From positions 1-64,000 of the forward strand of contig JAPPJY010000009.1 in NCBI GenBank assembly GCA_028874335.1: a DNA stretch of 64,000 nt. Direction: 5' to 3'. Below, piece by piece: positions 10,997 through 61,184 of the stretch (its first letter is position 1; each line of letters begins with the position of its first letter). A program made the translations under genes and the position numbers. The notes beneath the pieces are model-generated. The model was not told the origin of the DNA and did no database searches. It saw only the letters and a program-made list of their open reading frames with translations. The DNA is from Gemmatimonadota bacterium. Its GTDB lineage: Bacteria > Latescibacterota > UBA2968 > GCA-2709665.

Positions 10997-11995
10997 CTAC
11001 GCGTCTCCCCTGTCCGTATCTTCTTCAGGGCCGTCCTCGGTGTCGGCGATTCCTTCCCGCATCGAGGTATCGGCCTGGATATTCTGCATCCGGTAATAGT
11101 CCATGACGCCCAGATTGCCGCTGCGGAACGCCTCGGCCATCGCCCGCGGAACCTCCGCCTCCGCCTCCACGACCCGCGCACGCATCTCGACCACCCGCGC
11201 GCTCATCTCCTGCTCGTGGGCCACCGCCATCGCCCGCCGTTCTTCCGCCTTCGCGCGGGCGATTTTCAGATCGGCCTCCGCCTGATCCGTCTGGAGCTTG
11301 GCCCCGATATTGTCGCCCACGTCCACGTCGGCGATATCGATCGACAGGATTTCGTACGCAGTACCCGAATCCAGTCCTTTTCCGAGCACGGTCTTCGAAA
11401 TCAGATCCGGATTCTCCAGCACCGCCTTGTGCGTTTCAGAGGAGCCGATTGTGGTGACGATCCCCTCCCCGACGCGGGCCACGATCGTTTCCTCGCCTGC
11501 CCCACCCACCAGCCGATCGATATTGGCGCGTACAGTCACGCGCGACGTGGCCTTGACCTGGATGCCGTCTTTCGCCACGGCCGTGACCATCGGGGTGGAA
11601 ATCACCTTGGGATTGACGCTGACCTGCACGGCCTCCAGCACGTTGCGGCCCGCAAGGTCGATCGCCGCGGCCCGTTCCGTGGTGAGATTGATCCCGGCTT
11701 TGTCAGCCGCAATTAGGGCGGTCACCACGTTCTCCACGTGTCCTCCCGCCAGGTAATGCGCTTCCAGGAATGAGGTGGGAATAGCCAGTCCCGCCTTCGT
11801 GGCGCTGATCTGCGACCCCAGGATGATTCGCGGGGGAACGCGCCGCAGGCGCATCCCGACCAGTTCGCCGATTCCGATTCGGACGCGGGCCGCAAGGGCC
11901 GAGATCCAGAGGCCGACCGGGATGAAATAAAAGAAGAGGAACAGTGCTACGACTACTGCGACAACAATCACGAGAAGGAAAACTGCATCGACCAT
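10997..11995 (-). CDS. floA: Flotillin-like protein FloA
   Basis: A 332-aa SPFH-family scaffold of bacterial membrane microdomains, close to the FloA/UPF0365 family throughout its length. It has an N-terminal hydrophobic hairpin ([25 protein letters not shown]), an SPFH core including [20 protein letters not shown], and a C-terminal EA-rich coiled coil ([19 protein letters not shown]). It lies downstream of two NfeD-domain genes, the classical NfeD-flotillin neighbourhood. A MITE at 12059-12221 separates them. Confidence 0.95.
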
Positions 11996-12058
11996 AGTTC
12001 AGCTCCCTTTATATCTTCTACCGATTGAATCGATCTGACTCAAGTCCGGACGTTCCTA

Positions 12059-12221
12059 GTGTTCTGTCCCGGAAATAAGTTGCCTGAATTCGACCGCCGA
12101 GTCGCCCGTCTCGCAAGGCGCCTGAGCGCAGCCGACCTGCGTATGGTCGGCGAGCGAGGGCAACGTAGCGAGACGGGATGAATCGTCGGTCGAATGGTGA
12201 GGAATTCTTGGGACAGGACAC
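12059..12221. mobile_element. Palindromic MITE with TA target duplication (family B)
   Basis: The left end GTGTTCTGTCCC (12059-12070) and right end GGGACAGGACAC (12210-12221) are inverted repeats. Similarity continues inward through ATTCGACCG and CCCGTCTCGC on both arms, giving a long imperfect hairpin. TA flanks both ends (12057-12058 and 12222-12223), as produced by IS630/Tc1/mariner-type transposases. It encodes no protein. It sits between the short NfeD gene and floA, and its last base plus the TA form the TAG stop of the NfeD gene. Confidence 0.8.
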
Positions 12222-12529
12222 TATTTGGCGTCCTCGGCTTTACGAACCACGATCCGGTTGCCTTCAACCTCGACGACCGTGATCATGCTGTCCCTTTCGA
12301 TAAACTCGCCATCCGCGGCCACGTTGACCCGGCGCCCGTCAATCAGCCCTGTACCCGATGGGCGCAGCGGCGTATAGGCCACCCCTTCTTTTCCCAATAG
12401 CGCTTCATTCTCTCCGGTGGCTACGTAACCGGCCTCGGCCTTTTCGTCGGCGTGGAGTACGAGCCATCTCCACAACACGATAGCAATTGCGACGACAAGT
12501 ACAACCAGAATTGCAATTCCTTCGACCAT
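12221..12529 (-). CDS. Short NfeD C-terminal (OB-fold) membrane protein
   Basis: A 102-aa protein with one N-terminal membrane helix (GIAILVVLVVAIAIVLWRWLV) followed by an NfeD OB-fold domain containing EALLGKEGVAYTPLRPSGTG. It closely repeats the C-terminal domain of the long NfeD protein upstream, including the ending RIVVRK, so it probably arose by partial gene duplication. The ATG at 12529 was preferred over one six codons earlier. The TAG stop is supplied by the adjoining TA-flanked MITE. Confidence 0.85.
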   Translation of the reverse strand: MVEGIAILVVLVVAIAIVLWRWLVLHADEKAEAGYVATGENEALLGKEGVAYTPLRPSGTGLIDGRRVNVAADGEFIERDSMITVVEVEGNRIVVRKAEDAK

Positions 12530-12588
12530 ACCGCGGCTCCCGTACATACCGGATTGCCCGAGTAGAAAATTCCATATCCCGCCCGCTG

Positions 12589-13932
12589 CTAACTCGCCTC
12601 TTCGGTCTTTCGGACCACGATCCGGTTGCCTTCAACCTCGACCACCGTGATCCGGCTGTCCTTTTCTATAAATTCGCCTTCGGCAGCCACGTTGACCCGG
12701 CGCCCGTCGATGAGCCCCGTGCCCGCGGGCCGCAGCGGCGTAAAGGCAACGCCTTCCCTGCCAAGTAGCGCTTCATGTTTTCCAGTGGCGATGTACCCCG
12801 CGTCGCTGCGTTCTTCTTCGTGAAGCACCAGCCACTTCCACGCGGACGTGCGCGGCAGCATTTTCAACATCATGCCGCCGATCAGAACCGTCGTCAAAAA
12901 TGCCAGCAGCAGGGGCCGTGCGCCGTCCGCTACTGACTCCCAGGTCCACAGTTCCGGGCGTCCCATCAGGCTCAGAAACAGTCCGGCAAACATCAGAATG
13001 ACGCCCGGAATGGCCAGCACTCCGAATCCGGCAATGAAGAACAGATCGACAACCACCAGAATCACCCCGCCCAGAAAGAGCAGCACTTCCGTCCAGTCAG
13101 CCAGCTTTACCAGCAGATGGCTGCCGAAAAACAGACCCAGGCAGATCAGGCCGATTGTGCCGCCGACGCCCCAACCCGGGCTCTGGATCTCAAAGATCAA
13201 TCCCAGAAAACCGAGCGACATCAGCAGCGAAGCCACAATCGGGTGGGTGAGCCAGCGTACGACCTGCTCCGACCAGTTTACCGACTGGCGGGTTATCCGC
13301 GCGCCATCCAGTTCATAGTGCTTCAGTACGGCCCGAAGTTTCTCAAATTCACCGGTTGCCGTAACCATGGTTTCTGCGATCTTCTTCGCAACCGCCTCGG
13401 TAGTGGTGAGCGTGAGCAGCTTTCCCTTCGGAGCGAGACCCTCTATATCCACGTCTTCGTCGACCATCGCCTCCGCCAGCTCTGGGGGGCGGCCCGTCTT
13501 CTCGGCGGTCGCTTTCATCTCGTTGCGAAAGTAGGAGATCACCTTTTCGCTGGCCTTCTTGCCCTGCATGTCAACGGCCGTGGCCGCGCCGATCGTTCCT
13601 CCCTCCACCATGACGATATGCCGCGTAGCCAGTGAAATCAAAGCCCCGGCCGAGATCGCTCTTGGGTTGATGAAGGCAATGGTCTTCACATCGCTGTACA
13701 AAATCGCGTCCCGGATGACCAGGGCCGCATCCAGTGCGCCGCCAGGGGTGTCAATTTCGAAGACCACCGCGGACACGTCCTCTGCCTCCGCGTCCTCCAT
13801 AACCCGCGAGATAAAGGCGGCCAGCCCCCGCTCGATCGTCCCTCCGATCGGCACGACGTAGACGGATCCTTCCGCCAGGCACACGGACGGCAGAAGCAGG
13901 AGGAACGCAAGAACCGAAAGCGTAACGCGCAT
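12589..13932 (-). CDS. NfeD family membrane-bound serine protease (ClpP-like plus NfeD)
   Basis: A 447-aa protein with a signal peptide (MRVTLSVLAFLLLLPSVCLA) and a ClpP-like protease domain. EIDTPGG is near 59-65, the likely nucleophile is Ser94 in AISAG, and candidate catalytic lysines lie at 125-130. Several membrane helices follow at about 255-380, then a C-terminal NfeD OB domain with EALLGREGVAFTPLRPAGTG. Related enzymes cleave stomatin/flotillin partners at membranes. I chose the ATG at 13932 because it gives a clean signal peptide; earlier in-frame starts add a non-hydrophobic leader. Confidence 0.9.
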   Translation of the reverse strand: MRVTLSVLAFLLLLPSVCLAEGSVYVVPIGGTIERGLAAFISRVMEDAEAEDVSAVVFEIDTPGGALDAALVIRDAILYSDVKTIAFINPRAISAGALISLATRHIVMVEGGTIGAATAVDMQGKKASEKVISYFRNEMKATAEKTGRPPELAEAMVDEDVDIEGLAPKGKLLTLTTTEAVAKKIAETMVTATGEFEKLRAVLKHYELDGARITRQSVNWSEQVVRWLTHPIVASLLMSLGFLGLIFEIQSPGWGVGGTIGLICLGLFFGSHLLVKLADWTEVLLFLGGVILVVVDLFFIAGFGVLAIPGVILMFAGLFLSLMGRPELWTWESVADGARPLLLAFLTTVLIGGMMLKMLPRTSAWKWLVLHEEERSDAGYIATGKHEALLGREGVAFTPLRPAGTGLIDGRRVNVAAEGEFIEKDSRITVVEVEGNRIVVRKTEEAS

Positions 13933-14059
13933 TTGGGAGAGCTCCCCCGACGGTTGGAATTCAGGCGGCATGATCCTCAATATCAGTGTACCGCATTGCA
14001 GGTCAATTGTCAATGGCTTCGAAACGGTCGGCGGACGTCAACCAATGGCGTATTCCGGC

Positions 14060-61081: not shown

Positions 61082-61184
61082 AATTGAGGGAAACGCGGGT
61101 AAACAGCCCGTTGAAAAAGCCCATCCGGGCTACGGCCGGCCCTTGCGGTCGAAATACTGCGTTGCGCTCCTGCCCGTCGTGCGG

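Follow-up and report, generated by a model that had tools for sequence, protein, structure and literature searches.

A near-palindromic IS630-type MITE between nfeD and floA and the probable rebuilding of an existing stop codon

Introduction

Can a transposable element be said to have supplied the stop codon of a gene when the last base of that codon is its own? The question is raised by a locus in a 64,000-nucleotide stretch of contig JAPPJY010000009.1 (the whole stretch is called the window here), where a near-palindrome with TA on both sides separates a short NfeD-domain gene from floA. A first-pass annotation of these letters had read the near-palindrome as a MITE inserted by an IS630/Tc1-type mechanism, had credited it with the TAG that ends the short nfeD, and had suggested that its hairpin could uncouple the expression of nfeD and floA. 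We compared the locus with relatives that carry or lack the element, and followed the repeat family through the own genome and its congeners for copy number, target sites, divergence, and a candidate parent.

Results

Gene row and structure of the element. Along the minus strand, the NfeD1b gene is followed by the short NfeD-domain gene, the element, and floA, with 63 bp of ordinary sequence remaining between the element and the start of floA (Table 1). The short NfeD protein is closely similar to the C-terminal domain of the adjoining NfeD1b, a likeness that suggests a tandem duplication. The short nfeD also occurs in two congeneric genomes, G001 and G003. The remaining gap of the operon, which separates the NfeD1b gene from the short nfeD, is occupied in G003 by an independently inserted copy of this MITE family (L049, L158).

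The near-palindrome of 163 bp with TA on each side was read directly from the sequence, as the first-pass annotation had it. On the left, TA is followed by GTGTTCTGTCCC, starting at 12059; on the right, GGGACAGGACAC ends at 12221 and is followed by TA. Both element ends have GTGTYCTGTCCC, and the end pattern gave 143 matches in the own genome vs 11 for a reversed control pattern. No ORF of at least 80 aa was found inside the element. The predicted fold of the element strand, which had been proposed as a check, was very stable at -102.2 kcal/mol (z -9.3): 200 shuffles had a mean of -64.3 and a standard deviation of 4.1, and none equalled it.

Table 1 Features of the nfeD-floA locus in the window.
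Feature	Position	Strand	Basis
NfeD1b gene (ClpP-like, membrane, NfeD C-terminal domain), upstream in the gene row	12589..14013	-	
Short NfeD-domain gene, 108 aa	12221..12547	-	Pfam PF01957 (NfeD C-terminal domain), E 2.3e-14
TAG stop of the short nfeD, target TA + element terminal G	12221..12223 (codon 12223-12221)	-	TAG in both empty sites too
Target duplication TA, right	12222..12223	.	Sequence and empty sites
Terminal inverted repeat, AA end, GTGTCCTGTCCCAAGAAT; family consensus ..AAAAAT	12204..12221	-	
Near-palindromic 163-bp MITE, IS630-type, non-autonomous (probable)	12059..12221	.	Repeat family and empty site in congeners
Terminal inverted repeat, GG end, GTGTTCTGTCCCGGAAAT	12059..12076	+	Counterpart of the 3' transposase end in the autonomous relative
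Target duplication TA, left	12057..12058	.	Sequence and empty sites
floA (flotillin-like), PF12127, downstream of the element	10997..11995	-	

A dispersed family. The own genome contained 51 matches to the element, 28 of which aligned over 150 or more of the 167 query bases at identities of at least 82%. Twenty of these long copies had 88-100% identity, and the other eight formed a second subfamily at 82%. This copy number rules out a chance palindrome. Three congeners had 45, 56, and 46 matches to the family. When 60 relatives were searched, with the own genome counted in, seven had matches: the own genome, the three congeners, and three weak-match relatives that belong to one other family of the same class. 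The element thus represents a dispersed family of MITEs in four congeneric genomes. Its copies are short and numerous, lack a transposase gene, and have terminal inverted repeats and a target duplication against the empty site, as MITEs do. It is a new IS630-type MITE, fairly ordinary within an already known kind of element.

The second subfamily was nested in a larger repeat of about 335 bp, bounded by TA-rCAGCCCGTTGAAAAAG and CAACGGACTG-nTA. At L021-L028 in the own genome, the 163-bp second-subfamily element has been multiplied with its TA-flanked host repeat of ~335 bp, and here one MITE travels inside another. The larger repeat family (TA-aCAGCCCGTTGAAAAAG..) is also represented in the window, by a truncated end at 61103-61170 with CAGCCCGTTGAAAAAGC at 61104-61120; this family has many occurrences in the own genome and congeners.

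Insertion and the nfeD stop codon. The nfeD-floA gap of G001 and G003, the closest relatives sampled, was without the element and had a single TA where the window has two. Because these two congeners have an empty site with one TA, the copy at 12059-12221 is a true insertion with TA duplication, in agreement with the placing of an IS630/Tc1-type MITE between nfeD and floA by the first-pass annotation. A missing TA in element-free relatives, or a hairpin kept at the site as a conserved terminator, would have made insertion less likely; both G001 and G003 retained the TA, and neither kept a hairpin there.

The letters of the present TAG are indeed the target TA and the terminal base of the element, as had been noticed. 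However, both element-free congeners ended nfeD in TAG at the aligned codon, with the short NfeD C-terminus comparing as ..AEDAK* vs ..AEDAN*. Because of this shared TAG, the stop appears to have been rebuilt by the element and not newly supplied, which would leave protein length unchanged. Judging from the two relatives, the stop in the window's own lineage before insertion was probably TAG as well. The earlier wording, that the element supplies the stop codon, therefore fits the composition of the codon and fails for its origin. That a transposon supplies a stop codon is not to be concluded without the empty site.

Empty sites and flanks across the family. We tested 20 own copies by seeking their joined flanks in congeners. 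Spanning empty sites were obtained for 14. Compared with the empty site, the occupied one was longer by the element plus a net two bases in 13 of the 14; the sole exception was L010, with a net four. The empty sites of L018 came from several places per relative and may be paralogs. Some sites were occupied in two genomes: L010, L015, and L019 in G001 also, and L007 in G003 also. These common insertions therefore indicate that activity of the family spanned more than one splitting event in the genus.

TA was kept at both ends in only 21/73 copies, in a flank table of 77 copies from which four nested ones were left out and which includes at least two double calls (L016, 192 bp; L038, 234 bp) and two copies from other genera (L040 and L093). 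TA loss was independent at the two flanks, as ~21 TA/TA copies were expected from the separate frequencies. The empty sites were used to check non-TA flanks as either non-TA targets or carried donor bases, and the relatives were mixed: TA was present at the empty sites of L001, L012, L015, L041, L157, L166, and L169, and missing from those of L003, L004, L006, L007, L011, L017, L019, L020, L046, L115, and L155. Insertion of IS630/Tc1 elements is described as nearly always into TA, and 34 of 39 in vitro products reported for ISY100 were in TA with a normal duplication (PMC2170065). Non-TA flanks were thus commoner in the MITE family than these ISY100 data would suggest.

Target preference and stop codons. 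The MITE family prefers the target C[TA]G. Of 66 distinct copies, 52 had C before the left dinucleotide, 52 had G after the right one, and 41 had both; at the remaining TA sites of these flanks the counts were 785/5,407 (C before) and 701/5,407 (G after). The 66 were obtained from 68 rows with enough flank by removing overlapping double calls; L093 and L101 among them come from a Latescibacterota MAG, and an insertion shared between genomes is counted once in each. TA duplication and CTAG preference, the marks of an IS630/Tc1-derived element, were accordingly seen in the TA/TA copy of the window with its empty TA and in the 41/66 copies between C and G. The same CTAG preference is named in the title of a 1991 paper by Tenzen and Ohtsubo, which PMC2170065 cites.

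About one third of the copies (21/66) were on stop codons. Twenty of these were on the stops of called ORFs, which were defined by length alone as at least 110 aa, and the remaining one was the nfeD copy, whose gene of 108 aa falls below that cut. Among copies outside genes, 20/54 were on a called-ORF stop, whereas for ordinary TA sites in non-coding DNA the count was 78/1,096 (Fisher p 1.9e-9). Non-coding CTAG sites were on stops in 16/56 cases (6/13 in the flanks and 10/43 at other loci), and against these there was no difference (p 0.42). We therefore attribute the excess over non-coding TA sites to the CTAG preference, and rejected a targeting of stop codons beyond the CTAG rule since the excess vanishes in this comparison. 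A count of open frames only was set aside because in-gene TA sites have upstream open frames too (28% at 150 codons). Paper searches in an open-access library listed no case of a stop-codon-targeting IS or MITE.

The terminal G suggests how such landings may be tolerated. An element that starts with G beside TA would rewrite TAG automatically when inserted in the TA of TAG or TAA, and protein length would therefore be kept. Stop codons would then be harmless landing places, and a CTAG lying outside genes is often a stop codon; this harmlessness probably also contributes to the landings there. A CTAG-seeking, G-starting element that rebuilds the TAG or TAA it hits would be a simple reason for such elements gathering at gene ends.

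Candidate parent. We scanned GTDB contigs for the 22-base element end and found 16 stretches: 13 in G001 and G003, two in a Latescibacterota MAG, and one in a Cupriavidus plasmid (NZ_CP080769.1). The plasmid stretch belonged to a TA-flanked element, annotated as IS630-family, both ends of which match the MITE, including the same AAAAAT/GGAAAT end asymmetry. Its 360-aa transposase runs to the element end (..ISGTEH), with the stop on the target TA, and the GG end of the MITE in the same reading spells the ISGTEH residues. In G003, an 82-aa transposase C-terminal relic (..KAISGTGH) likewise runs into a MITE-type end.

PF13358 matches were present in G001 and G003. Within the own assembly no IS630-type (DDE_3) transposase was found, and a query with the G003 relic had no match in the own genome. 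Searching plasmids with the MITE as query likewise gave no match. L067 was considered as a parent in the genus and rejected, as it had no matching ends. The DDE_3 fragments of L068/L069 were rejected as well, being part of a second, decayed transposase that adjoins the end-bearing C-terminal relic. L068:343-1817 in G003 contains two adjoining decayed remnants of IS630-type transposases, and only the first has a MITE-type end.

Very probably the element is a non-autonomous MITE that an IS630/Tc1-type transposase mobilized in trans, although the missing DDE_3 match in the own genome and the many non-TA flanks count against this. The gene for this mobilizing IS630-family transposase would now be lost or unassembled in the own genome, with a relic in a congener.

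Divergence of shared copies. Copies shared by two species differed less than their flanks in the two pairs of mutual nearest copies to which the test was limited. L010/L109 differed at 1/163 bases vs 99/798 in the flanks (Fisher p 1.3e-7), and L015/L116 at 1/163 vs 52/800 (Fisher p 9.9e-4); the flanks of these insertions, common to two species, differ by 6.5-12%. Two other co-located pairs had poorly aligned left flanks, L007/L145 (not nearest neighbours) with 153/163 bases identical and L019/L113 with 158/162. L007/L145 either speaks against slow evolution of the copies or points to two separate insertions at a single site. The low divergence of the two tested pairs would be explained by constraint or by homogenisation between copies, and two pairs are too few to claim either. 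Should more pairs confirm the low divergence, homogenisation could be tested directly in bacterial MITEs.

Discussion

Alternative readings of the locus. One alternative gives the hairpin a role in the nfeD-floA operon as a regulatory RNA or terminator. Whether ancestral or recruited after the insertion, it would reduce floA expression or uncouple it. Its very stable fold and its place between two genes of one row would suit such a role, and among 39 copies 97.9% of the pair cells held standard pairs. Double-sided changes affected nine cells, a number that none of 500 shuffles reached and that related copies can cause; counted by pairs, only 2/59 had a double-sided change, as many as in the shuffles. 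Operon repeats of other bacteria, BIME and ERIC, are described as attenuating or destabilising transcripts (PMC3049150). On the other side, the element is missing at this site in G001 and G003, and the same palindrome occurs at unrelated genes. Neither an intrinsic terminator (GC-rich stem plus T tract; 0 sites on both strands) nor a sigma-70-like promoter was found in 11800-12700, Rfam had no match for the element, and ordinary sequence is left before floA. Together with the independent family copy that G003 has in the adjacent gap, this leaves the uncoupling of floA proposed in the first-pass annotation unsupported. We consider a regulatory function decidedly unlikely, and the hairpin is more plausibly a property of the transposon with no specific regulatory role at nfeD-floA.

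The origin and the effect of the element could each be read differently. If the palindrome were a REP/REPIN-like repeat mobilized by a Y1 transposase, or a MITE derived from IS5 that duplicates the four bases CTAG, its shape and the CTAG-like target context would fit, and the IS5-like MITEPsy1 is reported with such a target and a 4-nt duplication (PMC3189936). Either origin is very improbable given the net two extra bases, not four or zero, at 13/14 own spanning sites, and given termini that match an IS630-family element. Less likely still would be a true donation of the stop codon with shortening of the NfeD protein, to which we give almost no credence: the element does contribute its terminal base as the G of today's TAG, but the element-free congeners stop at the same aligned TAG. 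An IS630-type insertion that rebuilt an existing stop is the reading we retain. Beyond it lies the broader and rather doubtful idea of a stop-codon-safe family, in which the terminal G together with the C[TA]G target hides insertions into TAG or TAA stops from the protein and has thereby shaped terminus, target choice, and success. Recombination between copies, or constraint, would in addition keep the copies alike, given that shared insertions have changed far less than their flanks even as the flanking TA decays.

Comparison with known systems. Here MITE insertion in uncultured bacteria is proved cleanly by comparison, and the empty sites come with both a target rule and a candidate parent. 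One of the closest counterparts of the family is the IS630-family element of Cupriavidus pinatubonensis plasmid p2 (NZ_CP080769.1, L100:3793-4947), which is like the MITE in ends, TA flanks, and end asymmetry. Unlike the MITE it is 1,155 bp long, has a transposase gene, and belongs to a very distant host; its interior appeared unrelated in a comparison by eye.

RUP, the 107-bp repeat unit of pneumococcus, for which IS630-Spn1 is the proposed mover (PMC2229807, PMC3049150), is as described similar in kind: a short palindrome with IS630-like terminal inverted repeats, TA at the insertion site, and many mostly extragenic copies. Sequence and host are unrelated, and RUP is AT-rich in its host while the window MITE is GC-rich. 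RUP also has a parent IS in the same host, whereas none was found for the window MITE in its own assembly. MITEPsy1 of Pseudomonas syringae is likewise short, with a CTAG or YTAA target, but its account gives a 4-nt duplication and a probable IS5-type parent, in contrast to the 2-base duplication seen here (PMC3189936). The BOX repeats of pneumococcus resemble the window MITE in encoding the stops of neighbouring genes: 36/58 overlapping CDSs are reported to have a repeat-encoded stop, with truncation described there as lacking good evidence (PMC3049150). In BOX the stop lies inside the repeat, whereas at nfeD the old stop appears to have been rebuilt from the target TA and the first base of the element.
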